Both the position numbers and the translations under genes were made by a program. From positions 186,001-250,000 of the forward strand of contig JANQKZ010000035.1 in the NCBI GenBank assembly GCA_028280845.1: a stretch of 64,000 nucleotides of DNA, written 5' to 3'. The notes under the pieces are model-generated. The model saw nothing but the letters and a program-made list of their open reading frames with translations, was not told the origin of the DNA and searched no databases. Position 1 is the first letter of the stretch, and every line of letters begins with the position of its first letter. This document shows positions 8,896 through 29,186 of the stretch, one piece after another. This DNA comes from Opitutales bacterium. Its GTDB lineage: Bacteria > Verrucomicrobiota > Verrucomicrobiia > Opitutales > JABSRG01.

Positions 8896-8950
8896 GTATC
8901 CGAATCGTGGATACTATATAATCGAGGCATTTTATTGAAAGAAATTGCGA
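8896..8950 (+). promoter_or_regulatory. copy A of the AraC-associated element
   Basis: GTATC at 8896 and GATAC at 8910 are 14 bp apart, start to start. They are followed by TTTATTG at 8931 and AAATTGCG at 8942, 11 bp apart. Spacing is the same as in copy B to within one base. The copy lies 39-93 bp before the start of the minus-strand GH-A glycosidase gene. It is proposed as an operator for the neighbouring AraC-family regulator. Confidence 0.5.
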
Positions 8951-8964
8951 TTCCAGGCGGAGGT

Positions 8965-9129
8965 CAATTTCCAGGACGCCCGATATTCGGGCGCGAGCAA
9001 GTGGTTGTCCGCGGGCGAATGGGTGAAGCGGTTGGTCGGCTCATCCCAGAGTAGTCGAGATTTGCCGATGACGGCGTCGATGTCTTTCCGCTCCAGCATC
9101 CGGCTATAGTCAGAGTAGAGGGCGGGGGT
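8965..9129 (-). pseudogene. relic of a Gfo/Idh/MocA oxidoreductase
   Basis: Read on the minus strand, the segment encodes YSDYSRMLERKDIDAVI, the N-terminal Rossmann-domain motif of Gfo/Idh/MocA proteins. It is joined directly to LLWDEPTNRFTHSPADNHLL and then APEYRASWKL, which matches the conserved C-terminal tail of the same family. Some 250-300 intervening codons and the normal N-terminus are absent, so this is a deletion remnant. It lies between two copies of the AraC-associated element, as if a once regulated gene had collapsed. Confidence 0.6.
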
Positions 9130-9146
9130 CGGGGAAGAGTCAATTT

Positions 9147-9199
9147 GTATCCATTTATTAGATACTTTAATTCTGGACAATTTATTGGGGAAAATTGCG
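9147..9199 (+). promoter_or_regulatory. copy B of the AraC-associated element
   Basis: GTATC at 9147, GATAC at 9161, TTTATTG at 9181 and AAATTGCG at 9192 reproduce copy A in sequence and spacing. The two ATTG blocks are 11 bp apart, about one helical turn, as expected for tandem AraC-type half-sites. It lies between the oxidoreductase relic and the 3' end of the AraC gene, so it is probably the orphaned control region of the relic. Confidence 0.5.
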
Positions 9200-9236: not shown

Positions 9237-10157
9237 TCAGTGCATGGGCCGGTTGAGGCTACCGGGGGTGATACGCATATTCTTCTTAAAAACATTGTAG
9301 AAGTGTGGCACTTCTTTGAAGCCAACGCGCTCGCTGATGACCTTGATGGGCAAATCGGTGGTAGTGATAAGCTCGACGGCCTTCTCCAGGCGGATCTTGA
9401 TGAGGTACTGGTGTGGGCTTCGCCGCATGTATTGTTTAAATTTCCGGGTAAAGTGATACTTGGAATAACCGGCCACAGAAGCCACATCCTCGATGGCGAG
9501 GGATGAATCCCCGATGAAATCCTTCATATGCTCGCAGGCGTTAAGGATCGAGGAGGGGATGCTGGGTGCGACCGAGTCATGGAGTTGGAACAGCAGCATG
9601 AGGATGCGGTAGACCTGGCTCGACACGAAGTAGGAATCGTATTGCTGATTTTCCAGGCGGTATTGGTAAAGCTGAGTGAGGGCATCCACGAGCATAGGGT
9701 AGTCTATCAGGCTGTAAGTGTAGCCATTGATTTTAGTCAGCTCGGTGCAGAGGGTATTGGCGGCCTTACCAATAAAGTTGACCCAGATGAAGGTCCAGGG
9801 TTTACCCTCCTCGGCGAAGTAACAGGTCCTGGATTTATTGGGGATGAGAAAGGCATGGCCTGGGGGAAGCTCGTGGGTTTCGCCCCGTTCGTGATCCCGG
9901 AGGTAACCGACCCCTTCGAGGGTAAATTTTAATAGATAGAGTCCGTCCTCTCGGGATTCATTTTCCCAGTGGAAGCGGTTGTACACGCCGCGTTTTTCCA
10001 AGGCGATACAGGAAGCCAGGTGCAGGTAGTTAGCCTTGGTCGCCAGGGTGTCGGATTCGGTAAAGGGAAGAACCTTTTTGGGCAGGCTCAAGAGAAAATC
10101 GTCTATAGGGGCATCCACGATATTCCTGAATTGTCCAAAACAAGGGAAAAGAGGCAA
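9237..10157 (-). CDS. AraC-family transcriptional regulator
   Basis: This 306-residue protein has an N-terminal cupin-like sugar-sensing domain (roughly residues 50-170, with LPPGHAFLIPNKSRT) and a C-terminal double helix-turn-helix (about 205-303). The latter includes VASVAGYSKYHFTRKFKQYM and the second-helix segment VGFKEVPHFYNVFKKNMRI, both diagnostic of AraC/XylS. It is divergent from the isomerase-GH127-dehydrogenase operon (113 bp between starts) and sits next to the minus-strand glycosidase run. It probably activates one or both in response to a pentose or deoxy-sugar. Candidate operators with 11-bp tandem ATTG blocks lie nearby. The inducer is unknown. Confidence 0.9.
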   Translation of the reverse strand: MPLFPCFGQFRNIVDAPIDDFLLSLPKKVLPFTESDTLATKANYLHLASCIALEKRGVYNRFHWENESREDGLYLLKFTLEGVGYLRDHERGETHELPPGHAFLIPNKSRTCYFAEEGKPWTFIWVNFIGKAANTLCTELTKINGYTYSLIDYPMLVDALTQLYQYRLENQQYDSYFVSSQVYRILMLLFQLHDSVAPSIPSSILNACEHMKDFIGDSSLAIEDVASVAGYSKYHFTRKFKQYMRRSPHQYLIKIRLEKAVELITTTDLPIKVISERVGFKEVPHFYNVFKKNMRITPGSLNRPMH

Positions 10158-11245: not shown

Positions 11246-13024
11246 ATGTTGATGAAGTCCGGACCCGTTAAATCATCACGGTCGGTGTGTCGACCCCTGT
11301 CGAATAAGAATATCCAGCTGGGTAAGAGTTTCCTGGGGAAACGCTGTCGGCTGAACTTTGAGCGCCTGTTCATGGAGATTCCGGCCCGGGAGTACTTTGG
11401 TGAGGTATACTCTCAGGTGCATGAGGATTGGTACGCCGAGCCGGAGTTCTGTGGGCACTACCTGGACGTCGCGATGGAGTTTTACGATACTACCGGGCGA
11501 GAGGATATCCTGCACTTAGCCGGAGAACTGGTGGATTCGATTTTGGCACACCAGAGGGAGGATGGCTACTTGGGAACATACAAACCCGGATTAGAGTTTG
11601 GGCGTTCATTTTCGGTTTGGAACCAGCAGTTCACCATTATGGGGCTCCTTTCGTATTACGAGCGGACGAAAAACCAGGCTGCATTGGAGGGTGCGATGAA
11701 GTGTGCAGACTACATTGCCCAGCATTACATCGAAACGGGAGGAGGCGACCTGGTGAAGTGCATCAACTATGGTATCCAGCATTCCTGTATCCTGATCCAA
11801 TATGTTCGGCTTTTCCTGCTAACGGGGGAAGATCTTTACCGGGATTTTATCGACCTGGTTTTCAGGACGTGGGAGGAGGCCAACCTGCGCTTATTGGATA
11901 CGGCGGATCCTGGTTTCAGTTCGATGTATGAGCTCAGCTGCCAGAAGGGCATAGAGATGCTCATCTGTTTTCAGGGCATCGCAGAGATGTATCGCGCGAC
12001 GGGTGAAACCCATTTCCTGGATGCCTGCCGGAACTATTGGGATTTTATCCAGAATACCCAGATTGGCTTGACGGGAAACGGGACCCTGTCCGAGCTATGG
12101 ACCCCTGCAGGCAATCAGTTCCGGCATGTCTCCTGTGATTGTCGGCCCAATGAGAACTGCGTGGCTGTGGGTTGGATGATGTTCAGCTCGCTGTTGTTTG
12201 AACTGACAGGGGAGTCGAAGTATTTCGATGCCTACGAGCGGACTCTCTATAACCACCTGTTGGGAGCACAGGCGCAGGACGGCCGGGATTTTTCTTACTA
12301 CCAGGGAACCTACGGTTACAAAGTCCACGAAAAGAAACCCGGCCAATACAGCTGCTGCCGGTATCGCGGACTCCGGGTGCTGGCTCACTTGCCCCGGTAT
12401 GTGTTTATGGTGGGGGATGGGGTGCTCTACTGGAATCATTTTTGTGCCGCTGAAGCACAGCTCAGAATTGGAGGGGTCAAAGTGGTTTTGAGCCAGCAGA
12501 CGGATTTTCCCAGATCCGGAGAGGTGGAGCTGGAGATCCAGGTTGCTGAGACCACTGCATTTGAATTACGCATACGGTGGCCCGCCTGGTGCGATCGATT
12601 GACTGTGCAGGTGGATGGTCAGGAGTTTGGTCTGGATAACGAGGAGGGGTTTTTCCGGATTTCCCGGGAGTGGAGTGAGGGGAGACACCTGCTTCGGGTC
12701 CATCTCCATTTCCCTCTCAAGCTAGAGACGGCCAAAGTGGATGGCATTGACAGTGCCGCCTTGATTTATGGACCGCTTTTGCTGGCTTTGGATAGTCGGT
12801 ATCAACCGATCGATCAGGTTTCGCTCCAAACTAACGATTTGGGTGAATTTGTCCCAATGCAGGACGAGGGGGAGGATAGCCTGATCGTTTTCGAGGCGAA
12901 GGGGATCCGGGACGGGGAGCCGTTACCGCTACGCTTTATTGATTATGTCCATGCCGGCAGTGCGAGCCCGGGGGCGGATCGGTTCCGGGTTTGGGTGCCG
13001 GTGGCAGAAAAAGGATCATCATGA
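11246..13024 (+). CDS. GH127-family glycosidase (second copy)
   Basis: This 592-residue, signal-less GH127/DUF1680 protein is only distantly similar to the copy at 1350-3266. Site residues are conserved: Glu283 in LSELW (candidate acid/base), E303-N-C305 and the Cys pair 370-371 in YSCCRYRG. It starts directly after the isomerase stop and its TGA overlaps the ATG of the dehydrogenase gene, so the three are likely co-translated. In family terms it removes terminal beta-L-arabinofuranosyl or similar residues from imported oligosaccharides. The divergence among the three copies suggests different linkages. Confidence 0.85.
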   Translation: MLMKSGPVKSSRSVCRPLSNKNIQLGKSFLGKRCRLNFERLFMEIPAREYFGEVYSQVHEDWYAEPEFCGHYLDVAMEFYDTTGREDILHLAGELVDSILAHQREDGYLGTYKPGLEFGRSFSVWNQQFTIMGLLSYYERTKNQAALEGAMKCADYIAQHYIETGGGDLVKCINYGIQHSCILIQYVRLFLLTGEDLYRDFIDLVFRTWEEANLRLLDTADPGFSSMYELSCQKGIEMLICFQGIAEMYRATGETHFLDACRNYWDFIQNTQIGLTGNGTLSELWTPAGNQFRHVSCDCRPNENCVAVGWMMFSSLLFELTGESKYFDAYERTLYNHLLGAQAQDGRDFSYYQGTYGYKVHEKKPGQYSCCRYRGLRVLAHLPRYVFMVGDGVLYWNHFCAAEAQLRIGGVKVVLSQQTDFPRSGEVELEIQVAETTAFELRIRWPAWCDRLTVQVDGQEFGLDNEEGFFRISREWSEGRHLLRVHLHFPLKLETAKVDGIDSAALIYGPLLLALDSRYQPIDQVSLQTNDLGEFVPMQDEGEDSLIVFEAKGIRDGEPLPLRFIDYVHAGSASPGADRFRVWVPVAEKGSS

Positions 13025-14023: not shown

Positions 14024-17000
14024 CTATTTTTGAGAGGGCCTGACCCGGTAAAACCGTGCTCCCTCGAAGGAGCTCAGCGGCTCTGGGTCGCGGAGGTTGA
14101 TTTCAATTTTCCCTTCACCCAGGTTTACCCTTTCCATGAATATCTGGTTATCCGGAACCAGAGACCAGTTGATGAGATCAGACGATATCTGCAGGTCCCA
14201 GTAGGGTTCGGTGAGCGAGTAAGAGGCTTTAAAGCGGATTTGCGGATTCCGGTTTGTGGAATCCATTCCAATCTGAAGGGGGATAGGGGCAGAACCTTCA
14301 AAGAGAGGATCAAACCCGAGGAAAAAACTGGCTAAGGTTTCAGTAGGATTCTCGAAATAGGGACCGGGGGCAGACACCTGGTTAGGATCCGACATCATGG
14401 CGTTGACCCAATCCTCGAAAGTGGCCCTCCAATCTCTTGGATGGCTCTCTCCTGTGAAGTAGGACCTGGCTTTTTGAAATGCGGATTTTCCGATGTCCGA
14501 GCCCATGATTCTGCCTCTGAGATCGTCGGCCCAAACATGGATGCCCCCGTAAAGCCGGGAAATGCCCGCTTCGTCGGCAGCATCAAAGTATGTGGCCCAG
14601 GTCAGGGTGACATCCTCTTGAGGCCCCACCTCAAACTCCAGGAATTCATTGGCTTTTACGGAGAAGGAACTCATTCCTCCGGGAAAGAAAGCCGACCCGG
14701 TGATAGCCGCGAGAACTTCCGCAGCGGCACGACTGAAGGTGCTATGCCCTGAGGTGTATGCACCGAAGGGAGGAGACACGAAGGTCTGCCGTTGGTAGGG
14801 CATCCACTCCACGGCACGAATCCAGCCGACCCCGCCGATTTCGGTGTTGGGGTTCTCTGGAATACCCTTCCATGTAAGCAGGGCAATTTCACCCATGTAA
14901 TCGGCAAGGTGGGCATGATGCTCACCCTCAGCGGTGGACGCCTCTGTTATGACTTCGACCAGACCCGCTTTCAGGGGGAGGCCGTGTTGGTGGTAGGAGG
15001 GACCCTCTAAGTCGGAAGATTGGCCCTTCCCACCCATGTACCGGATCATGGTGATGGGCCGGACGTAGTTGTATTTGCGTTTGGCATCCCAACAGGCGAT
15101 CGCAGCGTCATACAGGGCAGCATTGATACAGAAATATAGCTTCACATCCCACTCCAGTGGAGGCAGCTCGGCGCCTAAACCTTCAAAGCGCCGTGAAAAA
15201 TCGGGATGGTCCGTGACCGCATTGGCGATAGAATTCCAATGCCCAGGAGGGGTTTCCGAGTCAGGGCCGTCAGCCCAGAATTCGGCAAGGATGCGCCCGT
15301 AGTCTGCCCGAAGCACCAGGTTGGGTAAGTAGGGTTGCCCTGTGACGGGGTTCACCGCATAGCCCTGCCCATCGTTGGTGCCGAGGGAATTATTGTGGCG
15401 GGCCCCAGGTGAGACATCGATAGTGACCCCATCCGAGGGATCATACCAACCCTGAAACTCGATCAGTTCCAGGACGGCGTCCTTAAAGTCCTGTTCTGTA
15501 TCGGTGCCCAGTAGGGGAGGCGGACCGGGGTCCAAATAAACGTCGCTACTGTGTTCACGGGTGAGGGCAAAGGGGGTCACCCATCCCCAGTTAGGGCCAA
15601 GAAACTCTTGCACAGAATCTCCGACGACGATGCCGTTCTGGAGCACCAGGTGACTCAGGCTAAGCGGTTGCCAGAGATTGGGGTGTTGAGCATCAGTGCC
15701 GGGAAGCGAAACGATCAGGGGATCATTAAGAGGAATGTACCCGGTTTGATCGGCGTAGGCGTGGGCCTCGTTGGCCCCGTCTGTCCAGCCGAAAGCAAGG
15801 TGTTGCAGGGCGATACGGTTTCCCACTGCCGCCGGGCTATTACCATCCAGGCTGTCTTCATCCGGATCATACCCGAGACTGCTCATGCGTTGGCGGAAGG
15901 AATCGAGAGAGACATGGGCTTGGGGAGACAATCTGTAACGAGAGCTCAACACCCGGTAGGCGGCGTAGCTGATGGCTTCTTCCCTGAACTTTTGCAATGA
16001 ATCCGGGGCTGCGGGGATGGCCGGGGCCTGAATGGACAGAAATGGCTGGTGAAGTCCGGAGGAATCGTAGGAGGCCCAGGCATCCCACATGGCAGCGGAC
16101 AGGGTAAAGAGGTTCCGGGAATGGACGGTGGGTGCCGGATAATCCAGGCGGATGGCTTCCAGGATTTCTTCGTTCCACTGCCGGGCGACCGATTTATCGG
16201 AGTAACTGGAACGTACGCTGACGCGGGCGTGATGGGAGTAGGCAATACCGGCTGTGTTCGTGGCGGTGACATAATATTTGCCGGCATCTTCCCGTTGAGC
16301 TGCCTCGATCCGGTAGGTAGAGGAGGTGGCTCCGGAGATCATATTTCCATTGTGGAACCACTGATACGTAGGTGAGGGAACACCGGATGCAGAGACGGAT
16401 AACACCAGCGTGTCTCCGGGTTGAAGGGCGAGCCGTGGCGGCTGCGTGGTAATGATCGGAGCTTCCCCCAGGGAAGAGATTTCGCCCTCCTCGGTCACCG
16501 TGATATGTTGATCTGTAGGGAGATCATAGATTTGCTGGACAATACCACTGGGCCATTTGATGGAAACACGGTGTACCCGGTCAGCTTCCTCCCCCAGTCC
16601 GAAATGGACGACAGGCTCCAGTTGAGCCCGGTAGGCATTGGTCGGGTTGTATTCGGCCACTTGTTCGGGGCCGCCTTCCTCCGTTTGCAGGGTAATGCAG
16701 GCGCCGATTCCATCGCGGTTCGATAGCGTTCCCCTGAGAGAAATCCGAATCCAGTGGTTGTCCACCGGGTTATTGTTTCGCAATAGCAGCGGATTGGTGA
16801 ACTGGTGGGTTGCGAACAGGTCGAGATCGCCGTCGTTATCAAAATCGAAGGAAACGACGGTCCCACCGTTTCCGCTGATATTTACTTTCTGGTCTTTGGA
16901 AACCTCAGTGAAATAGGCAGCTCCGGAGTTTTCCCAAAGCTTGAGGTGCCCTTCCTCCTTTGTGAAGGTGGTTGTGCCCTCCACGGGAACGAAATCATTT

Positions 17001-18124
17001 TCATTTGTCAGGACGATATCCAGGTCTCCATCATTGTCGAAATCGAAAAACACACTTCCCCACGCCCATCCTCCGTATGCTACTCCACGGGAGACGGCCA
17101 GGGGAAGAAACTTGCGATCCCCCTGGTTCAGGTAGAGTTGGTTCCCGGTAAAAGTCGGATCATCCTCCGTAGGTGCGTAGCCAATGGAGGTGACCCACCA
17201 ATCCAGTCGCCCGTCTCCATTCACATCCCCAATAGCGGTGCCCATGCCGTTGCTGTCGAGGCCGACGCCGGAGGCCTCGGTTGTTTCGACGAAGGTGTTA
17301 TCTGTATTGTTAAAAAAGAGGGTGCTCTTTTTAAAATCAGACACGATGGGTAAGTCGGGCCATCCGTCGGCATCGAGGTCTGAAACGAGGGGGGCGAATA
17401 CGCTGATGGTTCCTGGAGGCAGCTCCAGACCTGCGCTGTCGGTGATGTTGGTGAAGTATCCCGGGTTGGATGCGCCCTGATTCAGGAAGAGGGCGAAGTG
17501 CTGCCTTCGGTCAGGTTCATGGGCTGGACCGCCCCAATCCCCGACTACGATATCGAGGTAACCGTCCCGGTTTATGTCTCCAGTCGCAGCCCCTGCCCCA
17601 GAATGCAGATCTTCCGATCGCAGGTCTACCCCCCGCGCTATGGCTTCCTCCACGAAACCGCCATCACCCTTGTTGTGATAGAAAAGATAGCGATTGGTTT
17701 TTAAGGTAGCGAGGAAAAGGTCCTTATGCCCATCGTTGTCGAAGTCTGCCCAGATGGGGATGTTTCCTCCATCGTGGGGATCCAGGCTCAGTGGATTCTC
17801 AACTTGTGAGAAAGTACCGTTTCCATTGTTGAGCAGCAGGATGTCAGGCATTTGCCAACGCAACAGGTAAATATCCAGCCACCCGTCTTCATTGTAATCC
17901 ATGACAACCGGGGCCGGCCCTCTGGCTGCAAAACGAACCTCTCCGTCAAATAGCGGATCGTCCTGAGTGATCGACGCAATATCAAAGGTGGGATTGGATT
18001 GGGAGAGATTCTGAAACTGGGAATAGAGGATGCCGGGCAGTGGAAGCAGCACGAGATGAGCTAGTAAACACAAGGAGGAATCAAAGTGAAACTGCCCCCC
18101 TTTGGAAATTCCCGGAAAGTTCAT
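14024..18124 (-). CDS. FG-GAP / ASPIC-UnbV / Ig / vanadium-haloperoxidase-like fusion
   Basis: The chosen ATG at 18124 gives about 1366 residues with an export signal (LCLLAHLVLLPLPG). A longer in-frame start would run into the terminator at 18192-18223. Order: FG-GAP/VCBS propeller repeats with DFDNDG-, DINRDG- and DVNGDG-type calcium loops (about 55-430), an ASPIC/UnbV domain (about 450-560), an Ig-like domain (about 570-650), a PAP2/vanadium-haloperoxidase domain, and a C-terminal beta domain ending ARFYRVRPSQK. The haloperoxidase motifs are complete: KYNYVRPIT near 1017, SGHS near 1125, and Arg, His and Asp near 1190, 1196 and 1200. It is probably a secreted or surface oxidase or phosphatase. 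Halogen use is unproven. Confidence 0.8.
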   Translation of the reverse strand: MNFPGISKGGQFHFDSSLCLLAHLVLLPLPGILYSQFQNLSQSNPTFDIASITQDDPLFDGEVRFAARGPAPVVMDYNEDGWLDIYLLRWQMPDILLLNNGNGTFSQVENPLSLDPHDGGNIPIWADFDNDGHKDLFLATLKTNRYLFYHNKGDGGFVEEAIARGVDLRSEDLHSGAGAATGDINRDGYLDIVVGDWGGPAHEPDRRQHFALFLNQGASNPGYFTNITDSAGLELPPGTISVFAPLVSDLDADGWPDLPIVSDFKKSTLFFNNTDNTFVETTEASGVGLDSNGMGTAIGDVNGDGRLDWWVTSIGYAPTEDDPTFTGNQLYLNQGDRKFLPLAVSRGVAYGGWAWGSVFFDFDNDGDLDIVLTNENDFVPVEGTTTFTKEEGHLKLWENSGAAYFTEVSKDQKVNISGNGGTVVSFDFDNDGDLDLFATHQFTNPLLLRNNNPVDNHWIRISLRGTLSNRDGIGACITLQTEEGGPEQVAEYNPTNAYRAQLEPVVHFGLGEEADRVHRVSIKWPSGIVQQIYDLPTDQHITVTEEGEISSLGEAPIITTQPPRLALQPGDTLVLSVSASGVPSPTYQWFHNGNMISGATSSTYRIEAAQREDAGKYYVTATNTAGIAYSHHARVSVRSSYSDKSVARQWNEEILEAIRLDYPAPTVHSRNLFTLSAAMWDAWASYDSSGLHQPFLSIQAPAIPAAPDSLQKFREEAISYAAYRVLSSRYRLSPQAHVSLDSFRQRMSSLGYDPDEDSLDGNSPAAVGNRIALQHLAFGWTDGANEAHAYADQTGYIPLNDPLIVSLPGTDAQHPNLWQPLSLSHLVLQNGIVVGDSVQEFLGPNWGWVTPFALTREHSSDVYLDPGPPPLLGTDTEQDFKDAVLELIEFQGWYDPSDGVTIDVSPGARHNNSLGTNDGQGYAVNPVTGQPYLPNLVLRADYGRILAEFWADGPDSETPPGHWNSIANAVTDHPDFSRRFEGLGAELPPLEWDVKLYFCINAALYDAAIACWDAKRKYNYVRPITMIRYMGGKGQSSDLEGPSYHQHGLPLKAGLVEVITEASTAEGEHHAHLADYMGEIALLTWKGIPENPNTEIGGVGWIRAVEWMPYQRQTFVSPPFGAYTSGHSTFSRAAAEVLAAITGSAFFPGGMSSFSVKANEFLEFEVGPQEDVTLTWATYFDAADEAGISRLYGGIHVWADDLRGRIMGSDIGKSAFQKARSYFTGESHPRDWRATFEDWVNAMMSDPNQVSAPGPYFENPTETLASFFLGFDPLFEGSAPIPLQIGMDSTNRNPQIRFKASYSLTEPYWDLQISSDLINWSLVPDNQIFMERVNLGEGKIEINLRDPEPLSSFEGARFYRVRPSQK

Positions 18125-18191
18125 ACTGATACTGAAATGATATCTGCCGAAGAGGGGGTAGACAATTGGATTTGATTTACGACCAGGAGTA

Positions 18192-18223
18192 AAAACCCGG
18201 ACTGGAGGACCAGTCCGGGTTTT
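18192..18223 (-). terminator. strong rho-independent terminator
   Basis: A perfect 14-bp stem (AAAACCCGGACTGG paired with its complement) encloses the 4-nt loop AGGA and ends in TTTT on either strand. It follows the minus-strand TonB receptor stop (18277) by 54 bp. It also separates that gene from the haloperoxidase fusion, which helps to reject the longer upstream start of the latter. Confidence 0.9.
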
Positions 18224-18276: not shown

Positions 18277-21200
18277 CTAAAACTCAAACCGTGCCGTCAA
18301 CTGATAACTCCGGCCTTCCTGGATACGGAAGGCTCCGTAACTGCCATCGGGTTGGGCATTGAGGGGCACCAGTTTATTCTCCCCGAAGGCATTGAAGACA
18401 TTGAATTGCAGTGAAGTGCTGACCGTATCATCAAACCAGGGAAGGTCATAACTGAACCAGAGGTCGAAGATATTGAGTGGGTCGTCGCTGAAGTTCTTAT
18501 CAATGTCGATCACCGTATTGCCTTGGTCATCGATCTGCGGTTCGTAGGCGATGACAGAGGAGCTTTGATAGCGGTAGGCCCCACCGACACCGAAACCTCT
18601 CAACTTACCTTCGGTGAAGTTGTAGTTGGTTACCGCATTGAGGCGGTGTTTCCGGATTTCGGGCTGGGTCTGTCCATTGAGGGCGTCGACCTTGAGGAGG
18701 AATCCGGAGACGTTGGGCCAGATATTGACAGCAACGCCAGGGCTCTGCACCCACCAGACGGGCATTTCGCCAGCCGGCGTTTCTTCTACGTAGTGCCGGA
18801 CAAAGTCAAATAGTTCGGAAATATTGCCGGGCACATTGTCGCGAATGGCTTCCGTTTGGGAGTAGTTAACCGCCAGACGCCAGTTGCGGGTAGGATTGGC
18901 CACGAGTTCCACTTCATAACCTTTGGAGACCGAGTCTTCTGTGTAGGCGTGTCCATCGGGTGGGCCGATCTGAGAATCATCCGTATGGGCTGGGTTCCAG
19001 GGACCACGCACCCAAGATTGGACAAACTTGGGGAAGGTGGCTTCCAGGTCGGTTTCAAACTGCTCCCAAGCAGGAATGATCACGTCTCGCAAACGATCGG
19101 GGTCCGGGTGATCCTCGATGAGCCATCCGGAATTCGGGTCCAGGAAGAGCCCGCGGGATTCTGAAGGTGAGGCGATAGTAAAGCCAAACCAGAACATATT
19201 GGCATCGAGGTCCGGGAAGGTAGAGGTGGCGTTGGAGATCTTGGTCTCGTACTTGGTCAAGCGCAGGCTATACTTGTTGTCCGGTGTACTGAGCAGGATA
19301 CCATAATCTTCGGTTTCTCCTTTGGGGGGAGCGAGCGGGTCGCCAAACGCATCCACCCGCTCAGCGGCTGGCTGGAAGTTTGTCCCATTATTGTAGAACA
19401 AACCTACATTGAGTGGTATGAAGGGGATCTCCCGGTCTTCCCAGAGACGGTTGATATGAATCACGCCACTGTAGTTGTTGCTGGTGGCCTTCAATTCTCG
19501 CCGTTCGGGGACATCGAAGTTGTAAGCGCTCGAGCTCAGGTTGATGGTATTATCATCGTTGATCTGATTGGTTTCATTGCCATTGCTGTCGACACGGGAG
19601 GGGGTATGAGTTCCGGCCACGGCGTCGTCTTTTCTATAGCCGTAGGTGAATACCAGCGCATCATTCCAGAAATAGCCCTGGTAGACCAATACCTGGGAAT
19701 CGATTTCGGAGAAGGAGAGCTGGGCTTCCATCGTCAGCGCGTCCTGGCTTGCCTGGCCATCACTCGCCACCAGTAAGTTCATGTTGCTTCTCACCCGACC
19801 CAGATAGTTGGCGGGGTTCATGGACTGGAAACCCCAGCGTCCTGCTACCCCGTTTATATCAATATCGCGGCGGTGCCTGAACTGGTTATTATCGAATACA
19901 TCCCCCGGTCCGTAGGGCATTCCCGTGGCGGGATTGGTCTGGGGCATCCAGGAGGGGATGTAGTGTTCCACGCTGATGGGCCCTCCCGTTTCCGGAAAGA
20001 TTTTGTGTTGTATACCGGTAAGGGAAATCTGGTTTAAGGGGGTTCCCCGCAGGTCCGGGGTGAGGTAATAGCGGAAGGCTGTGCGGTTCGCCTGAGAATC
20101 GATTCGATTGTCACCGGTGAGGGCTTCGCGGGAGGCCTCATCCCAACCATGAGAGTAGAAGTTGCGGCGGTCGCTAAATTCATCCTCATACATGACGGCT
20201 CCTGTCACCCGGTGATTACCGAGCAATTTCCACAACCAATTGCCGTCACGACTTTCATTAAAATCATGGGAGGCAATAGCCTGGATCCGCCATGCCTTGC
20301 GGTCGATGGTGGAGTTAAATGAATTGCCCACGGTTTCGGCGGCGAAGTAGGCCCGTCCGAGATTGGGGTTGAGCAGGTCCGCGGAAGGAACGAGGCCCTG
20401 TGGCCAATTCGGGTCGGAGGAAATAGCATCTTCGGGATAAACGGTTTCGTTCATCTCGACTGCGAGGTCCGCCCGGCCCGAGATTACACTGTTGACCCCG
20501 CCTTCCCAGTTTTGGCTGAAGAAGTTTGCGTTGAGGCCGAACTTCCCGTCCAGGTAAGTTTGGGAGAAGCCGAGCTCGTAGGTCGTCCAATCCATATTTT
20601 CTTCTTTGTTATCCCCGTCCATGAGGACTTTGTAGAAGTTAAATATGTTGTCATCCCTCAGGCCTCGTTGAACATAGAGGCCGGAATCCCCGAAGGGAAA
20701 GCCCATGAACCGAGCGTATGTCGGGTAGTCGGCGATCACTACCGGGAAGGTGTCCGAGGCCATGATGGTATTGGGTTCGATCGCATCGTTGACCGTGCCA
20801 TCCGGATTAAGGGAGCCCGTGGTTTCGATGCCTGCCGAAAGAACGTCGATGGGGCCATTACGATCATAGACCCAAACCACGTTATTGATGGAAATAAAGT
20901 CGCCCTGGACGAAGGGCTTAAAGGCCAGGTTATCAGGCAGGGGAGGATCGTCGTTGACGGAGTTGGAGTCACGACTGGCGGTATTCGAATTGGTGGTAAA
21001 CCAACCCCCTTCGTGAGCGGGATCAAACCATGGGGTGAAACGATCGTGCGGCGTGACAAAACGGGGATGGTTACTGGTTATCGAACCAAATTCCACGTTG
21101 GCGCTGAACGAAGTATACAGTTGGTTTTTGTTCAAGAACTTCGGTTCCCAGGTTGCCGCAACATAGAGGCGATCATCGTTCTCGTAGGCCGGATTCTGCT

Positions 21201-21948
21201 GGTACCGCTGACGGTCAGCCAGACCGGCAACTCGAACGGCCAGTTCGTCTTCTATGACTTCACGATTATAATCCAGGGAGCCACGAATGGATCCATAAAA
21301 ATCGAACATCAACTCCGCCCGGCCAATGTTTTCAAAGACAGGAGAAATCAGGCCGGCGTTGACAACCCCTGCCGGGCTGCCCAATCCAAACATGATTCCA
21401 TTGGCCCCCCGGAGCAAGTCTACGCGGTCTACAGCGTAACCATCCCAGGGTACATCCGTACGAAAGTAATTCCGGGTGTTGTCGGCGGCGGCCAAACCAC
21501 GGATACGGGTGTTGGTATTTGGGCTCAGGAAGTTGTCTGCCTCATTGACCACCGAACCGACTTGGGCGCCGGAGAAATTTCCCCGAGGTCCGCCGACTTC
21601 AGTGTTTGTGGCGTAAGCCAGGGCTCCAGTATTATCCACCGCTCCAATGTCTTGGAGGAACTCTGGGGTGAGCACCTGAATGGCCGTTCCAATGTCTTCC
21701 AGGTTGGTGTGTATACGCGTGCCCGCAAGGGTATTGGATGCGTAGTATCCCGAGTCGGAAGATGCATCCACTTTAAAGGGAGATAAGGTTTCGATTTCCT
21801 CATCATCGCCGGGGGTGGAGTCATCTTCGGGTTGTGCCAACATAGCACCGGAGGTAAGCACAAGGGCAAGGCCTAGGGCGATGACAGGTGTGCTCCCCAA
21901 GAATCGAAAGAAACCGAAAGTAAGGGTTTCAGATCTAGTTGTATTCAT
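18277..21948 (-). CDS. TonB-dependent outer-membrane receptor
   Basis: This large (1223-residue) receptor has a signal peptide (VIALGLALVLTSGAMLAQ), then a short N-terminal segment with LSPFKVDASSDSGYYASNTL, a leader style typical of the Opitutus-type receptors. The plug is at about 75-200, containing TRIRGL and DRVDLLRGANGIMFGLG. The remaining ~1000 residues form the beta-barrel, ending in aromatic TARFEF. No separate SusD partner is encoded nearby, as is usual outside Bacteroidota. Neighbouring GH127, GH78 and GH-A genes suggest import of plant or algal oligosaccharide fragments, but the ligand is unknown. It is followed by a strong terminator. Confidence 0.92.
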   Translation of the reverse strand: MNTTRSETLTFGFFRFLGSTPVIALGLALVLTSGAMLAQPEDDSTPGDDEEIETLSPFKVDASSDSGYYASNTLAGTRIHTNLEDIGTAIQVLTPEFLQDIGAVDNTGALAYATNTEVGGPRGNFSGAQVGSVVNEADNFLSPNTNTRIRGLAAADNTRNYFRTDVPWDGYAVDRVDLLRGANGIMFGLGSPAGVVNAGLISPVFENIGRAELMFDFYGSIRGSLDYNREVIEDELAVRVAGLADRQRYQQNPAYENDDRLYVAATWEPKFLNKNQLYTSFSANVEFGSITSNHPRFVTPHDRFTPWFDPAHEGGWFTTNSNTASRDSNSVNDDPPLPDNLAFKPFVQGDFISINNVVWVYDRNGPIDVLSAGIETTGSLNPDGTVNDAIEPNTIMASDTFPVVIADYPTYARFMGFPFGDSGLYVQRGLRDDNIFNFYKVLMDGDNKEENMDWTTYELGFSQTYLDGKFGLNANFFSQNWEGGVNSVISGRADLAVEMNETVYPEDAISSDPNWPQGLVPSADLLNPNLGRAYFAAETVGNSFNSTIDRKAWRIQAIASHDFNESRDGNWLWKLLGNHRVTGAVMYEDEFSDRRNFYSHGWDEASREALTGDNRIDSQANRTAFRYYLTPDLRGTPLNQISLTGIQHKIFPETGGPISVEHYIPSWMPQTNPATGMPYGPGDVFDNNQFRHRRDIDINGVAGRWGFQSMNPANYLGRVRSNMNLLVASDGQASQDALTMEAQLSFSEIDSQVLVYQGYFWNDALVFTYGYRKDDAVAGTHTPSRVDSNGNETNQINDDNTINLSSSAYNFDVPERRELKATSNNYSGVIHINRLWEDREIPFIPLNVGLFYNNGTNFQPAAERVDAFGDPLAPPKGETEDYGILLSTPDNKYSLRLTKYETKISNATSTFPDLDANMFWFGFTIASPSESRGLFLDPNSGWLIEDHPDPDRLRDVIIPAWEQFETDLEATFPKFVQSWVRGPWNPAHTDDSQIGPPDGHAYTEDSVSKGYEVELVANPTRNWRLAVNYSQTEAIRDNVPGNISELFDFVRHYVEETPAGEMPVWWVQSPGVAVNIWPNVSGFLLKVDALNGQTQPEIRKHRLNAVTNYNFTEGKLRGFGVGGAYRYQSSSVIAYEPQIDDQGNTVIDIDKNFSDDPLNIFDLWFSYDLPWFDDTVSTSLQFNVFNAFGENKLVPLNAQPDGSYGAFRIQEGRSYQLTARFEF

Positions 21949-22615
21949 AATCGGTAGGGGTTCGATTGGGTCTCATAAAGATATGATATGTGCCCCTCGA
22001 GTGGCCTCTATGGCATACACGGGATTGATCGCCTGAAGAGAGAGGGGGGTAACAGTAGGATCAAGGGTAAGGGTGTAGTTCTAAACAGTTTGCAGTCTGA
22101 CATGGTTGGGGTTGGTCAAATGACTGCCTGGCACCTTCCATGATATCGAAACCCGCATTTATGGTAAATTGCGCAAAGTTGAGCTTTTATTTCGATTTAT
22201 TGCTAACTGCTTATTGATGATGATTAGCACTGTTTAATAACAGCCCCCTGCTGGTTTAAGCTTTCTAATGAGGCGGGTGATGCTTTTGTCCAAAAAGAGG
22301 GAATGGTTCGTGGGCGCGGGGAAGAGTCAGGGGAGTGCCGGTAATTCCGTTAGGAGAATTCTTGATGTCAGTGGGATCAAAGGCGGTCCCTCGATGCCTT
22401 GCATCTTTTGAAATCAGTATGTATCGAAAATCGGGATACAAGGATGAAGAAACAGAACTTACCGGTTGAGCCGGGGCGAGGAATTGTGAACGATGCGCAT
22501 TGGAGGAAATTGCGGTGGGTATGCGCAAAAAAATATAAAATTATTTAGTAAGCACCTATCAGGTTCTGGGGTAGAATGCATTCCGACTCATAGACCTGCT
22601 TCCCTATTGTTTGAA
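21949..22615. other. 667-bp divergent intergenic region
   Basis: This AT-richer stretch separates the TonB receptor (minus) from a GH127 gene (plus). It holds copy C of the AraC-associated element and a near-dyad around 22154-22173 (GCATTTATGG then TAAATTGCG) that resembles half of that element. No convincing coding sequence was seen on either strand. Confidence 0.6.
22421..22514 (+). promoter_or_regulatory. copy C of the AraC-associated element (split)
   Basis: GTATC at 22421 and GATAC at 22435 keep the 14-bp spacing of copies A and B. ATTGGAGGAAATTGCGG at 22499 keeps the 11-bp ATTG spacing. The distance between the two halves is 40-41 bp longer than in A and B, about four helical turns. 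It lies about 100 bp upstream of the GH127 start chosen at 22616 and overlaps the longer alternative start, which I therefore reject. Confidence 0.45.
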
Positions 22616-24376
22616 ATGACGGATACCTATTCTCATGTTTCGCTGAATTCCCTTTCCATGGGGGGAGAAATCGGCCGCCGAATCGAGCTCACCGTTCATC
22701 AGAATCTGTTGAAACTGAATCATGCGGCCGACTTTTTATCGCACTTCCTCAAAAAGGATGGAACAGCTCCCGGAGGATATGTTGGTCTGGGGAAGCTGGT
22801 GGATGCCTTGTCCAAATTTGCGAGGTATACCGAAGACCCAGCGGTGCTGGAACTGAGAAGGGAGCTTATGGGCAAGATTTTGGGTTCGCAGGAAGCGGAT
22901 GGGTATATCGGGGTTTTTGAAGAGGCGGATCGGGGGTTGAAGCTCTGGGACCTGCATGAAATGGCCTACATGGTGGTGGGGTTGGTCACGGACTACCGGC
23001 TTTTTCAGGAGGAGGCCGTTCTGGAGGCGGCCCAAGGGCTGATGGGATACCTGCGGGGGTGCCTGGAGGCGGACTTCTCTGAGGCGTTGCAGAAGCAGGA
23101 TGTCACATTTGAGAACGCCACCATCGGGCTGGAGCATGCCTGTATGGGAATGTATAAAGTCACGGGTGACCGGGAATACCTAAACCTTTGTATAAGGGTC
23201 AGCGGATTTGACCGCTGGGACTGGCCAATCCTGATGAAAAAAGAGGGGCACGCCTACACCTATATGGCCCGTTGTCTGCAGCAATTGGAATTGTTCCGTG
23301 ATACGGGGGAGCCGGCTCTTCTGAGACAAAGTCACATGGTTCGGGATTTTCTGCTATGTAAGGACGGGATGGTTGTAACAGGAGGGGCAAGCCAACTGGA
23401 ACGATGGACAGATAATCAGTTTGGCCAACACGCGCTGGCGGAGACCTGTGTCACTGCTTATTCCCTCTGGCTGTTGGACAGCTTACTGCGGCTGGAAGGC
23501 CATTCGTATTACGGTGATGTGATGGAGCGGATTATCTATAATACCCTTTTTGCAGCCCAATCCCCGGACGGAAGAAAGCTGCGGTATTTTACGCCCTTTC
23601 AAGGTGAACGGCACTACTTCAACAAGGATACTTATTGTTGTCCGAACAATTTCCGACGCATTCTGGCAGACTTACCTTTATTCGTCTACTACACAGCTGA
23701 GAAGCGTATGTTGGTAAACCTATATAATGCGTCTGCTTTTGACGGGGAGGTTCCCGGGGTCGGCCGGGTGAGGTTCGAGCAACAGACCGATTACCCAAGT
23801 GACGGCAGAGTGAACATTCGGGTGGGACTGGAGGAAGCCAGAGAATTTGAGCTTAAACTACGTATCCCCCACTGGGTAGATGAAGCCGAAATCCGTATAA
23901 ACGCGGAAGCTCCCCTCCGGATTACGCGGGGGGGGACATATTATACCATTCACCGAACCTGGCAGGACGGAGATACGGTGAATTTGACCTTGCCGATGCA
24001 GGTGAAAGCCGTTCGTGGACGCCAGATGCAAGCCCGGCATGTGGCTCTGGTGCGGGGTCCGTTGGTGTTTGGGCTGAATACGACCCGCCAGAACATGTAT
24101 ATCGAACCGGATCTGGATTTTCTGAGAGTGGATCCCGGTTCTATCGAAGGGCCGATCTCAGACGACCAGGTGCGCCCGGGCGGTGTGATGCTACGAGGGA
24201 AGGCCTGGAGTAAAAAGAGCGCGGTGCTGGGCGGTCCTGATTTAGACCTGGAATTCAGTGAATTCGTGGATCCCGGGGTGCGGAGTATTTATTATATGAC
24301 CCCGGATCAGTTGGATGATCGGATAGAGGAAGATGCGTTACATTTTCCCGGGGGATGTCCCTGCTGTTCCGATTAA
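22616..24376 (+). CDS. GH127-family glycosidase (third copy)
   Basis: The start at 22616 (MTDTYSHVSLNSLSMGG) gives 586 residues. An in-frame start at 22493 would place the regulatory element inside the gene. GH127 site residues are present: Glu262 in QLERW (candidate acid/base), E276-T-C278, and Cys341-Cys342 in YCCPNNFR. No signal peptide is seen. The C-terminus is beta-rich and ends in an unusual Cys-containing tail (GGCPCCSD). It is convergent with the dehydratase gene, 11 bp away. It probably acts on L-arabinofuranosides or related units in the cytoplasm. Only the family is certain. Confidence 0.85.
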   Translation: MTDTYSHVSLNSLSMGGEIGRRIELTVHQNLLKLNHAADFLSHFLKKDGTAPGGYVGLGKLVDALSKFARYTEDPAVLELRRELMGKILGSQEADGYIGVFEEADRGLKLWDLHEMAYMVVGLVTDYRLFQEEAVLEAAQGLMGYLRGCLEADFSEALQKQDVTFENATIGLEHACMGMYKVTGDREYLNLCIRVSGFDRWDWPILMKKEGHAYTYMARCLQQLELFRDTGEPALLRQSHMVRDFLLCKDGMVVTGGASQLERWTDNQFGQHALAETCVTAYSLWLLDSLLRLEGHSYYGDVMERIIYNTLFAAQSPDGRKLRYFTPFQGERHYFNKDTYCCPNNFRRILADLPLFVYYTAEKRMLVNLYNASAFDGEVPGVGRVRFEQQTDYPSDGRVNIRVGLEEAREFELKLRIPHWVDEAEIRINAEAPLRITRGGTYYTIHRTWQDGDTVNLTLPMQVKAVRGRQMQARHVALVRGPLVFGLNTTRQNMYIEPDLDFLRVDPGSIEGPISDDQVRPGGVMLRGKAWSKKSAVLGGPDLDLEFSEFVDPGVRSIYYMTPDQLDDRIEEDALHFPGGCPCCSD

Positions 24377-24387
24377 TCGAGGTTCTT

Positions 24388-25500
24388 TCACTTCACGCCA
24401 AACTGCTCCATGGCCTCTGGCTTGAGGGTAGTGCCTGCGCCATTTTCCCGGGGCACCTGATACATCCCGTCCACCACGGTCATGGGCTCCACGAAACAGC
24501 GTCGGGTCCATGGGATATATTCGAGGCTCGGACATCCCGCGTGGGCTATGCCGAGGTGGAGTTGGGCCTGGCCTCCATCGCCATGATGGGGCACGACGGG
24601 CAAGCGATGTCCATAAGCGAGATCGGCGACCTTCCACCACTGGGTAATGCCTCCGACTCGCACCGCGTCGACCTGCACAAAGTGAACGGCCCCGGCATTG
24701 ATAAAATGGCGGAAGTCATCGATCGAATAGAGTAATTCGCCCAAGGCGATAGGAGTGGAAATCTGGCGAGCCAGTTGGGCATGTCCGTTGATGTCGTGAT
24801 GCCACATAGGTTCCTCGAACCAGATAATGTCAAAATCCTGCAGGCGGACACCCACCCGAGTGGCATGGTTGAGATCCCATCGTCCGTTTGCATCGACCAT
24901 GAGCTTGATGTCATCTCCGATCGCCTTGCGGACAACCTCTACTCGCTGAAGGTCTTCCACCGCGGAAGCTTTACCCACTTTTATCTTTATCCCGCGAAAC
25001 CCGGCTTCTTCTACCTGCTTACGGCAATCATCAACCAGGAGTTCTTGAGGCCAGTTTAACCAGCCCGCATCGGTATTGTATGCTTCCAGATGGGTATCCT
25101 CCTGCCCTCCCAGCAGCTTCCAGAGCGGCATCTGCAGCACCTTGGCTTTTAAATCCCAGAGTGCTATATCGATGGCGGAGATCGCCATTTGGGTGATACC
25201 GCCACGGCCCACCCACAGGGCGGGGGAGTATTTGATCATGGTCTCGTTGAGGGATTCCACCTGCATGACATCTTTCCCGATCAAAAGCGGGCCGAAGGTA
25301 TGCTCGATGCAATCCACGATCACACGGTCGAGTGGCAGGAAAGCATGAGTTCCGGTATAACCGTAACCGGTGGTTCCATCCTCTGCGGTGATCATCACTC
25401 CCGGCATGCCCCAGTGAGTGATGGCATGGGTGCTGTCTGCGATTTCGTCGCGGGTAACGGGAACGTGGAGAATGAAGGGGGTCAGTTCTTTTATCTTCAT
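24388..25500 (-). CDS. enolase-superfamily sugar-acid dehydratase (mandelate racemase subgroup), cytoplasmic
   Basis: The 370 residues carry the full mandelate-racemase-type site: Lys172-x-Lys174 (IKIKVG), metal ligands Asp203 (MVDANG), Glu229 (WFEEP) and Glu255 (ALGE), an Asp at about 278 (VDAVRVGG), and His at 305/306 (PHHGDG). This is the K-x-K plus H/D arrangement of acid-sugar dehydratases such as galactonate, talarate and fuconate dehydratases. Unlike the other four enolase-superfamily proteins here it has no export signal. It lies convergent with a GH127 gene and downstream of a large glycosidase, so a hexonate or pentonate derived from those sugars is likely. The exact acid cannot be read from sequence. 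Confidence 0.85.
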   Translation of the reverse strand: MKIKELTPFILHVPVTRDEIADSTHAITHWGMPGVMITAEDGTTGYGYTGTHAFLPLDRVIVDCIEHTFGPLLIGKDVMQVESLNETMIKYSPALWVGRGGITQMAISAIDIALWDLKAKVLQMPLWKLLGGQEDTHLEAYNTDAGWLNWPQELLVDDCRKQVEEAGFRGIKIKVGKASAVEDLQRVEVVRKAIGDDIKLMVDANGRWDLNHATRVGVRLQDFDIIWFEEPMWHHDINGHAQLARQISTPIALGELLYSIDDFRHFINAGAVHFVQVDAVRVGGITQWWKVADLAYGHRLPVVPHHGDGGQAQLHLGIAHAGCPSLEYIPWTRRCFVEPMTVVDGMYQVPRENGAGTTLKPEAMEQFGVK

Positions 25501-25662
25501 GGCAAGGCTGTTGGGCCCGAATCTTATCCCTTACCCAGTGGACGACAAAACATCTTTATTGGACGTTATTGCCTTTTTGTTATTATTGGGATGCTCCTGG
25601 CCTGTATTGTATAAGGTAGCGTGATCACGAATCGATAGGGTAGTTTAAGGAAGAGCGGGGGC

Positions 25663-28600
25663 TTAAGGTCGGGGTAGATTGAACCAGCCACGGGACTGGG
25701 AGTAGAACCACCGGTTAGAGTCCTCTAAATAGTAGATCCACTCGGCGGTGCTGCTCTGCCACATCCAAGGGTAGAAATGGACGCCGTGGTAGATCCACCC
25801 CAGGTCGGGATGGTAGGCCCAGAAGTTGGCCGGGTTGTGAGAACCGAGGAAGAGGTAACCATGATCGGCGTGGTAGATCCAGCCCCCTGGTTCACCCACA
25901 TCCTTCAGGAGGCCGAGTCGGGTGTCATAGAACCAGCCGCCACCCATTTCGTAAAATCCTGAAAAAAAACTATCGGGTCGGTGAAGCGTGACGTGGGTAT
26001 AGAGAGCATGACGGGGCAGGACGATTTCCAGGCCCGCTTCAGTGAGCTGGTGGCGGGGTTGACCGATGGGCATGCCGTTGATGTCAAGAATCTGGATCTC
26101 GGCAGACTGTGCACTGGTTACGTTGTGCAGGAGGATGGTGCAATCGGTGGTGGTGACATTGAGGGGTGGGGTTCCCATGTTGGTGATTTCAAAGCCCTGG
26201 TGAGTGGTGTTGCTCTCATCCGTCCAGGAGGCTGGGGTCGTGGTCCATCCGTAGGGTTTATCGTCGGTGCCGGACTGGATGAGGATACGTTCGGATTCGG
26301 AGAGCGGCTTGTCGTCGAGGGAGATGGCGAGCACGGAGGCGAACTCGTTCTTTGAATCTACGGATAGATCGCTCAATTGAACCTGCCCGTAATTACCCAG
26401 GAACCCGGCGGTGCCTTGTGCGCGATCGGTGTCCAGGGTAAAGATACCGGCCTGGGTATCCCAGAAGAGTTCTTCGGTGGCACTTTGTACGGTGCCGGTG
26501 CCATGGTCTATGTATTGGTCGAGCAGGTCCTGGCGAATGAGATCGGTGTCATCGTCGGAGGTGACGTCGACTTCAACCTTTCCCACGACGTAAGACCAGA
26601 GGTCTACTTCGCTCTGGGATGAAGGGGCGCCAGTGTCGGAGTCGCGAGTGGGGTCAAACCCGGCGAGTTGAGTGATGATGGATGGCTCACGATCCCACAT
26701 GGATTGCAGGGAACGGCCTTCTTTGACCACCACGGGGGCTGTCGCCACGTCTCCGCGCCGATAGAGTAAGGCGATGCCTGGAAACTGACCCAGGATGGTC
26801 GGTGTTGCCAGGGGCCATTTGGGTAGGGTGGAGGAAAAGGTGGAGGGAGGCATGGAAAACCAGGAAAACCCATCGACATCGTTCATGGATGCCACTGCGG
26901 CAAACATCATCGGGCCTTCAGCTCCGTAATTATTTGGATTCACCCAGGTGAGTTCGGAGATGAAGCTCGGGTGGCCCGTCACCTGTTCGTAGGCAGATGA
27001 TATCAAGTGGGGGTTATAGACTCCGGCGACGGGATTGAATTTGTCGCCCAGGCTGACCGTAAACCTTTGGTTCGGGTCGACGAGATCGATAGGGGAATCG
27101 AAGTAGTTGTGCAGGTCAATCACACCGGCGGCGGTATAGGTCCAGCGCTCAATATCCAGGAGCCGTTCATCGTTGGAGGTGCGCCAGTTGGAGGCAGTGA
27201 AAGTGCACTGAATGCCAATTTCGTCCTCCATGAAAGCCCGGATGTCCGCATACCAGTTGCGCTGTAACCTGGCGTAGAATTCAACGAGGTCGACCATGCG
27301 TTCCCGGCTCGGGCCGGGGTTGAGAAAGCTATACCCCAGATCGTAGGCCCCGGCCACCTGGAGCTCCTGGTTCCCGAGGTCGTCCCCGTTCCGGCTGGCA
27401 CTGCCACCCCATGCGGAGTGTGCGTTATCCATAGATTCGTGTTTTTCCACCACGAACGCATAAAATTTCTGGCGCAGCTTGGTCAGCTGCTCCGGGGGGA
27501 TCTGGTTGAGGTCCAGAGTCCAGAAAAACATATTGTCCTCGTTCTGGATCTCGACAATGGCCAGGGCTGGATCATTGACCAGGGGGACGCCGGTGTAAGG
27601 GTTGGTTGTGGTGTAGAGTTCACGCATCCAGTCCTTGAAGGCGTTGCTCATATCCTCATCCCAAAAGATGTTTCCAAAAGGCGCGCGGTCGTGGGAGCTG
27701 GTCCAGGAAGCGGTGTATCCATCGATCCCCCATTCCGGCTGGATACGGAGGCCGAGGCTAAAAAAGTGAGAGGATTTGGTATAGATACCTGATTCTCTGT
27801 AGGCGGCCACGGTGCGGTGGAGCACATCTCTGGCGAGGGGGTCCACATAGGACATCGTATCAGCCGAGTTGTCGTATACACTGGTATGGTAGCGCACGAG
27901 ATTTACCCCGCGCTTGGCGAGGAATTCCGCGTGGTGGCGCATCGTTTCGTAGGAAGAGTTATTGAAACCCAGGTTGACCCCGGCGAAGCGGATATGTTGG
28001 CCGTCGCCGCGGTAAAATCGATGTCCCTCCCGCGTGATGAACCCGCTCTGACCGGCAAGGTCCTCATTGAGGTAACGTAGATCCAGCAGGGACTGACTGG
28101 AAAAAACCTCGGCCTCCGGTTCAAAGGCCCATTTGCCGGGTTCGGCCAGGCCGAAAAAGGCCTCAGGCTTGCGTTTACCGTTTGGGGCGAAGGGGGTCCT
28201 GGTGGCCAGGAAGGCATCGTAGTAAAACTGGGTGAGACCGGCACCGCCGCGGTCGTCAGGTTCAAACAGGGTGTTGTTGAGGTGAATCTCCAGGGTGACG
28301 GAACCCCGGGGCATTTCCCTTGAGCCCATCTCAACCCAGCTTAGTGGAAAATTGGGTTTATACTCCACATCTTCCAACTTGCTGTTGTCCCCATCGACGA
28401 TGATGAGGGCACTCTCTTCCTCCCCCTTGAGTTTCCAGCCGAACCAGGAGTAGGACCAGGGCTTGCGGACGTAGAATTGATAGTAGCCGGCGCTGGGAAT
28501 TTCCAGATCGTAATCGATCACGTAGGAGAAACCGTTGTTTTGCTCGTCTTCGGTGGTGCTGTAGCCAAAGCCGTTCCCACTTGAATTTACGGATCGTTCG

Positions 28601-29061
28601 GCATCAGAGCTTGGGTTGAGCCAGTTCGATGCGGCAGGGGTGGTGGTAGCGGTGTAGGATTCCCCCTCCCACCAGACCCAGGTGGTTCCGGAGGGTGGGG
28701 CCTCATTCGTAGAGGCGGCTAGGGTTGCGGACGGGGAAGATTCGCCGTCGCTATTTAAGGCTGTGACCTGAAACCAGTAATCGGTGGAAGACGCGAGATA
28801 ATCGACCGTAGCCTGAGTGGTGTTCGCCCCCACTTCCGCTACTTCCACAAAGATGCCGTTCTGGCTGGCGGACCGGTATACCCGGAAGGCTGTTTCATCG
28901 GAGCTGTTGTCGGTCCACGACAGGGTGATGGAGCGGCCGGTGGCCTCGACCCGTTGAGGGGTTGAGGGCGCGCTCGGCTGGGCGGACAGAGACGATAAGG
29001 CCAGAATAGCGGCTAGAGCGGCTACCAGAAGACGGAACGGGGTTTTTAGGGTCATCGGCAA
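25663..29061 (-). CDS. secreted multidomain clan GH-A glycosidase with surface tail
   Basis: These 1132 residues comprise a signal peptide (LLVAALAAILALSSLSAQ), a fibronectin type III domain (about 31-118), a carbohydrate-binding-like beta domain starting WWEGESYT (about 128-290), and a GH-A TIM barrel (about 330-800). Asn507-Glu508 (EIQNEDN) is the likely acid/base and Glu703 (ISELTW) the likely nucleophile. A beta domain follows. The last ~95 residues are Trp/Tyr/Gly-rich repeats (GGWFYD, GGWIYHADHGYLF, LGWIYHG, RGWFNLP), a C-terminal type common on exported proteins of this group. It is divergent from the GH78 gene and shares its 214-bp control region. Substrate unknown. Confidence 0.8.
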   Translation of the reverse strand: MPMTLKTPFRLLVAALAAILALSSLSAQPSAPSTPQRVEATGRSITLSWTDNSSDETAFRVYRSASQNGIFVEVAEVGANTTQATVDYLASSTDYWFQVTALNSDGESSPSATLAASTNEAPPSGTTWVWWEGESYTATTTPAASNWLNPSSDAERSVNSSGNGFGYSTTEDEQNNGFSYVIDYDLEIPSAGYYQFYVRKPWSYSWFGWKLKGEEESALIIVDGDNSKLEDVEYKPNFPLSWVEMGSREMPRGSVTLEIHLNNTLFEPDDRGGAGLTQFYYDAFLATRTPFAPNGKRKPEAFFGLAEPGKWAFEPEAEVFSSQSLLDLRYLNEDLAGQSGFITREGHRFYRGDGQHIRFAGVNLGFNNSSYETMRHHAEFLAKRGVNLVRYHTSVYDNSADTMSYVDPLARDVLHRTVAAYRESGIYTKSSHFFSLGLRIQPEWGIDGYTASWTSSHDRAPFGNIFWDEDMSNAFKDWMRELYTTTNPYTGVPLVNDPALAIVEIQNEDNMFFWTLDLNQIPPEQLTKLRQKFYAFVVEKHESMDNAHSAWGGSASRNGDDLGNQELQVAGAYDLGYSFLNPGPSRERMVDLVEFYARLQRNWYADIRAFMEDEIGIQCTFTASNWRTSNDERLLDIERWTYTAAGVIDLHNYFDSPIDLVDPNQRFTVSLGDKFNPVAGVYNPHLISSAYEQVTGHPSFISELTWVNPNNYGAEGPMMFAAVASMNDVDGFSWFSMPPSTFSSTLPKWPLATPTILGQFPGIALLYRRGDVATAPVVVKEGRSLQSMWDREPSIITQLAGFDPTRDSDTGAPSSQSEVDLWSYVVGKVEVDVTSDDDTDLIRQDLLDQYIDHGTGTVQSATEELFWDTQAGIFTLDTDRAQGTAGFLGNYGQVQLSDLSVDSKNEFASVLAISLDDKPLSESERILIQSGTDDKPYGWTTTPASWTDESNTTHQGFEITNMGTPPLNVTTTDCTILLHNVTSAQSAEIQILDINGMPIGQPRHQLTEAGLEIVLPRHALYTHVTLHRPDSFFSGFYEMGGGWFYDTRLGLLKDVGEPGGWIYHADHGYLFLGSHNPANFWAYHPDLGWIYHGVHFYPWMWQSSTAEWIYYLEDSNRWFYSQSRGWFNLPRP

Positions 29062-29167
29062 GGAGGGTAAAGGGGATATAGATAAAATGACCGTTACTAT
29101 GTGCTGATTGTTAAGCAGTACAGTTTAGCAGTTTAAATATTTTATCGGCGTTGTAGATTTTTGCGAT

Positions 29168-29186
29168 TTTATTGGGGACAGTTGCG
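29168..29186 (+). promoter_or_regulatory. copy D of the AraC-associated element (ATTG half only)
   Basis: TTTATTGGGGACAGTTGCG keeps the 11-bp spacing of the tandem blocks seen in copies A-C, with one block as GTTG. The GTATC/GATAC pair is not found at the expected place. The site lies 90 bp before the GH78 gene (plus) and 107 bp before the GH-A gene (minus), so it could serve both. Confidence 0.4.

Follow-up and report, generated by a model that had tools for sequence, protein, structure and literature searches.

A 64,000-nucleotide stretch of an Opitutales bacterium genome (contig JANQKZ010000035.1, positions 186,001 to 250,000; hereafter the window) carries a cluster of sugar-related genes in which two short DNA elements recur: a 19-bp block containing ATTG (the ATTG block) and the interrupted palindrome GTATC-N9-GATAC. 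The cluster includes three GH127 genes (1350-3266, 11246-13024 and 22613-24376), a GH28 gene (42317-43708), several enolase-superfamily sugar-acid enzymes (sugar-acid dehydratases), an AP-endonuclease-2 type isomerase fold and an FG-GAP/PAP2 protein, a gene content that suggests pectin or rhamnogalacturonan breakdown. Features of the two elements and of the genes around them are presented in Table 1. The original prediction had merged both elements into one control element of tandem half-sites for an AraC-type activator, placed near glycosidase genes.

Table 1. Copies of the ATTG block and of the palindrome, with the adjacent genes
Feature	Position	Strand	Remarks
AraC-type site, copy 1	8931-8949	minus	CGCAATTTCTTTCAATAAA; exact core match; ~74 bp upstream of the 6347-8857 ATG
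AraC-type site, copy 2	9181-9199	minus	CGCAATTTTCCCCAATAAA; duplicate module, 250 bp further upstream than copy 1
AraC-type site, copy 3	22496-22514	minus	CGCAATTTCCTCCAATGCG; between TonB receptor gene and GH127 gene
AraC-type site, copy 4	29168-29186	minus	CGCAACTGTCCCCAATAAA; between fn3 protein gene and GH78
Weak possible fifth site	25555-25573	minus	GGCAATAACGTCCAATAAA; upstream of enolase-superfamily gene 24388-25500
Palindrome beside copy 1	8896-8914		exact GTATC-N9-GATAC; one of 72 in genome
Palindrome beside copy 2	9147-9165		exact GTATC-N9-GATAC; one of 72 in genome
Palindrome beside copy 3	22421-22439		exact GTATC-N9-GATAC; one of 72 in genome
AraC-type regulator	9237-10157	minus	cupin sensor and two-helix-turn-helix DNA-binding domain; proposed reader of the sites
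First gene of leftward operon served by copies 1-2	6347-8857	minus	836 amino acids; GH-A of the original prediction
TonB-dependent receptor	18277-21948	minus	Pfam Plug; candidate target of copy 3; 14024-18232 comes next
fn3-containing large protein	25663-29061	minus	candidate target of copy 4
GH127	22613-24376	plus	alternative rightward target of copy 3
GH78 alpha-L-rhamnosidase	29276-31891	plus	alternative rightward target of copy 4

The four copies of the ATTG block are all intergenic and all lie on the minus strand. Read in gene direction, the block is CGCAAY-N6-CAAT (short form GCAA-N7-CAAT), with a box-to-box offset of 10 bp instead of the 11 bp first reported; ATTGCG, thought to be common to all copies, is present in copies 1-3 but becomes GTTGCG in copy 4. 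The starts originally listed mix the two elements, 8896, 9147 and 22421 being those of palindromes and 29168 that of an ATTG block. The recurrence of the block was itself confirmed and exceeds chance, as its core has 4 matches in the window against a mean of 0.3 expected under a first-order Markov model (maximum of 2 in 300 simulations), while in leave-one-out searches a matrix built from any three copies ranked the remaining one fourth or better among 127,964 window positions. CGCAAY-N6-CAAT has 11 matches across the complete genome (4.79 Mb), including the four cluster copies within one 20-kb stretch. Because the other seven all fall inside open reading frames, at about the number given by a reversed-pattern control (6, i.e. 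chance level), the ATTG block is a local motif of this cluster and not a genome-wide one. The stricter TTTATTG-N6-ATTGCG, with one mismatch allowed, occurs at six places, three of them listed copies and one at 25555 in the window. The short form GCAA-N7-CAAT matches the window six times, and five of these matches are intergenic, on the minus strand and between 8.9 and 29.2 kb; they include the weak site at 25555-25573, which fits the short form and the common orientation but has a matrix score at chance level.

The protein encoded at 9237-10157 displays the two-domain architecture of AraC-type regulators. An N-terminal effector-binding cupin is recognized by Pfam AraC_binding (6.6e-11, residues 73-185), and the C-terminal region, which contains the two helix-turn-helix motifs, is matched by Pfam HTH_18 (2.5e-19, residues 226-301, covering profile positions 2-77 of 80) and by solved AraC-type domains. 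The best NCBIfam match is the arabinose regulator AraC, at 5e-16 and well below the cut-off of that model. The scan of genes up to 49 kb detected no other DNA-binding regulator; a LacI-type gene occupies 49409-50488. Published sites for one AraC-family monomer comprise Rob GCAC-N7-CAA, SoxS GCAC-N7-TAAA and AraC TAGC-N7-TCCATA, where the two helix-turn-helix motifs of a single subunit contact adjacent turns of DNA (PMC4514859). All four copies of the ATTG block present the same arrangement of two boxes one helical turn apart (GCA... N7 ...CAA type), and GCAA-N7-CAAT has the spacing of the Rob site and nearly all of its letters. The AraC-type reading of the block is supported, but what had been taken for tandem half-sites is better described as the A and B boxes of one monomer site, and each copy is best read as a single AraC-type half-site.

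The AraC-type reading is well supported, as the block is confined to this cluster, lies at promoters, keeps one orientation, has a suitable box spacing and matches published half-sites. We conclude that the ATTG block probably serves as the half-site of an AraC-family activator that is specific to this cluster and acts on the leftward operons, the 9237-10157 protein being the most likely candidate; binding by this protein, the activation and its ligand are what we infer. Copies 1 and 2 lie between the end of the AraC gene and the start of the leftward operon 8857-222. In the proposed mechanism, one subunit would place its two helix-turn-helix motifs into successive major grooves, on GCA and CAAT, while the N-terminal cupin would bind a sugar released from a pectin-like polysaccharide; the sugar-bound protein would then activate the leftward operons starting beyond the sites. 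Since all copies point leftward, the predicted targets are the operon headed by 6347-8857, the operon of the TonB receptor and the gene for the fn3 protein. The association with glycoside hydrolase genes noted in the original prediction therefore stands in altered form, as orientation favours the leftward genes 6347-8857, 18277-21948 and 25663-29061 over the GH127 and GH78 genes that run rightward. The predicted operator set is an ordinary example of the known AraC-type kind. It resembles AraC/XylS activators such as E. coli AraC-araI1, Rob and SoxS in having a cupin and two-helix-turn-helix protein encoded inside a sugar gene cluster, boxes one turn apart and intergenic copies in a common orientation; it differs in that the protein has no close homologue, a second half-site at 21 bp accompanies copy 4 only, and binding and ligand are predictions. 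A search of the literature on Verrucomicrobia with AraC sites found no match, and the predicted operators and targets listed here form a concrete set for a pectin-type sugar cluster from bacteria that have been little studied.

Several observations weigh against this assignment. Although an extra CGCAA exactly 21 bp downstream of copy 4 speaks for it, a 21-bp periodicity having been described for AraC-family sugar regulators (PMC3870299), copies 1-3 have no second half-site at that distance. Copy 3 is ~550 bp from the start of the TonB receptor gene, a promoter search at copies 1-2 gave no sigma-70-type match, and no sites were found at the AraC gene's own promoter or at the divergent operon at 10271. 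Compared with araI1 by itself, the block shows weak similarity (shuffle p 0.04). The regulator has no orthologue in 52 genomes (best identity 26%) and no close relative in a genome contig search, and the 6347-8857 protein likewise has no orthologue, its best relative in the order being 29% identical.

The same protein could read the sites and yet regulate the rightward genes GH127 (22613) and GH78 (29276), alone or together with the leftward ones. Copies 3 and 4 do lie in divergent regions, ~100 and ~90 bp from these rightward starts (the GH127 gene is judged to start at ~22613, within an open reading frame that opens at 22493), but no rightward target exists for copies 1 and 2, and the one orientation common to all copies is leftward here by analogy with araI1. 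Rightward action is rather unlikely. It is more doubtful still that the sites belong to a regulator encoded elsewhere, for example a DeoR-family repressor. The sites of the DeoR-family protein RhaR are imperfect direct repeats with a 10-11 bp periodicity (PMC3870299), and the link between the AraC gene and the present sites is a predicted one; against this, the scan of window genes found no DeoR-type gene, the motif is restricted to the very cluster in which the AraC gene lies, and its letters and spacing fit AraC-family half-sites.

The likeness among copies might also reflect local duplication of one promoter module with no common regulator. Copies 1 and 2 do represent such a duplicated module, with two ungapped blocks in common at 76-77% identity, 250 bp apart. 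Copies 3 and 4, however, match copies 1 and 2 in the 19-bp block only and differ from them in their flanks, and the leave-one-out recovery holds, making this the least probable explanation and a very improbable one. The two duplicated modules are separated by a short reading frame, SPTPALYSDYSRMLERKDIDAVIG...KSRLLWDEPTNRFTHSPADNHLLAPEYRASWKL (8950-9150, minus strand), which is presumably similar to a Gfo/Idh/MocA oxidoreductase whose two ends have been brought together by an internal deletion; Pfam gave no match to this fragment.

The palindrome GTATC-N9-GATAC was found at the first three copies, as described, but it does not form one control element with the ATTG block. Its inner N9 is constant, but its distance to the ATTG block, start to start, is 38, 37 and 78 bp at copies 1-3, which led to rejection of a fixed spacing, and copy 4 has no palindrome. 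While the ATTG block is local to the cluster, the palindrome has 72 copies in the genome, mostly within coding sequence and in all three frames, and a role as component of an AraC-specific element was rejected on this ground; scatter without relation to sugar genes, named in advance as evidence against the original prediction, is observed for the palindrome and not for the ATTG block. The palindrome is a second, independent element, probably read by a dimeric protein. It occurs within 80 bp of three of the four AraC-type sites, for which the chance probability is ~2e-5 if copies 1 and 2 are counted once and uniform scatter is assumed. Since this co-occurrence is improbable by chance, the palindrome may have a function at these promoters too, perhaps by binding a second regulator.

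Other spacings served as the control for palindrome frequency, because a reversed pattern contains TAG stops and is biased low. Spacings N10-N30 (21 spacings) gave 85 matches together, or ~4 per spacing, so that N9 is ~18-fold enriched, while forms with one mismatch are barely above chance (17 versus ~10.5 in 414 kb). A simple codon-usage classifier distributed the 72 copies as 42, 13 and 10 among the coding frames and 7 in non-coding DNA, although the intergenic palindrome of copy 2, within a decayed reading frame, was scored as coding. The exact palindrome is over-represented genome-wide, in both coding and non-coding DNA. Codons for Ile-x-x-x-Asp-Thr account for some copies only, found in apparent aldo-keto reductases, histidine kinases and sulfatases; a protein-motif artefact is insufficient because ~30 of the 72 copies are non-coding or use another frame and only the N9 spacing shows the excess. 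An RNA hairpin was also rejected, as the three local copies fold modestly but inner positions are not paired beyond expectation across the 72 sites, and this lack of covariation is more in keeping with a dimer-bound DNA site than with a hairpin. Elsewhere in the same genome, loci L060 (2600-3060) and L066 (2560-3060) have a similar gene start and upstream region, both with an intergenic GTATC-N9-GATAC and an adjacent inverted repeat GCGATGAAATA...TATTTCATCGC.

Many, but not all, genomes of the order are strongly enriched in the palindrome, with counts per genome that reach 128, 67, 58, 57, 56, 49 and 47, and the enrichment is again specific to N9 (~1-5 matches for each other spacing). Relatives with comparable GC content have 0 copies. 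Base composition was rejected as the reason for absence, since genomes with 61-65% GC carry 33-128 copies and others with 61-68% GC carry 0-2. Almost every genome from outside the order has the palindrome at chance level; the two exceptions seen, G088 and G211, contain near-identical copies that look like dispersed repeats. No clustering was observed along the closed chromosome of the relative G031 (p 0.13), which led to rejection of the palindrome as a ter/ori macrodomain mark. The literature on Verrucomicrobia with over-represented palindromes yielded no match, and HIP1 of cyanobacteria (PMC4390886) comes closest among known phenomena. HIP1 (GCGATCGC) is likewise an exact palindrome that greatly exceeds its expected number in both coding and non-coding DNA, in a clade of which some members lack it; in contrast, the GTATC palindrome is interrupted by nine free bases, has ~25-130 copies per genome and is almost wholly restricted to another bacterial order. 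Dispersed chromosome-maintenance sites such as matS (bound by MatP) and those of SlmA and Noc are also palindromic, occur in tens of copies per genome and lie mostly within genes. The present palindrome differs from these in showing no clustering or exclusion zone on the G031 chromosome and in having no candidate protein. As a tentative proposal, which we hold somewhat less likely than its converse, GTATC-N9-GATAC could be the exact word that an undescribed dimeric DNA-binding protein recognizes across the order, kept at roughly 25-130 copies per genome and also placed beside AraC-type sites in the promoters here; this protein would serve chromosome maintenance, DNA modification or global control. 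The palindrome is the more interesting lead than the AraC-type regulon, as the protein that reads it, once found, would offer a direct route to a new global DNA-binding system.

The 6347-8857 protein has no Pfam, NCBIfam or solved-structure match by sequence. Its gene is followed in the leftward operon by 5691-6377, 3263-5602 (glycyl radical enzyme), 1350-3266 (GH127) and 222-1337 (URO-D). The product of 3263-5602 (minus strand) is a pyruvate-formate-lyase-like glycyl radical enzyme of TIGR01774 type, scoring below the curated cut-off, and is thus encoded inside a glycosidase operon, beside GH127 and a URO-D-like gene.

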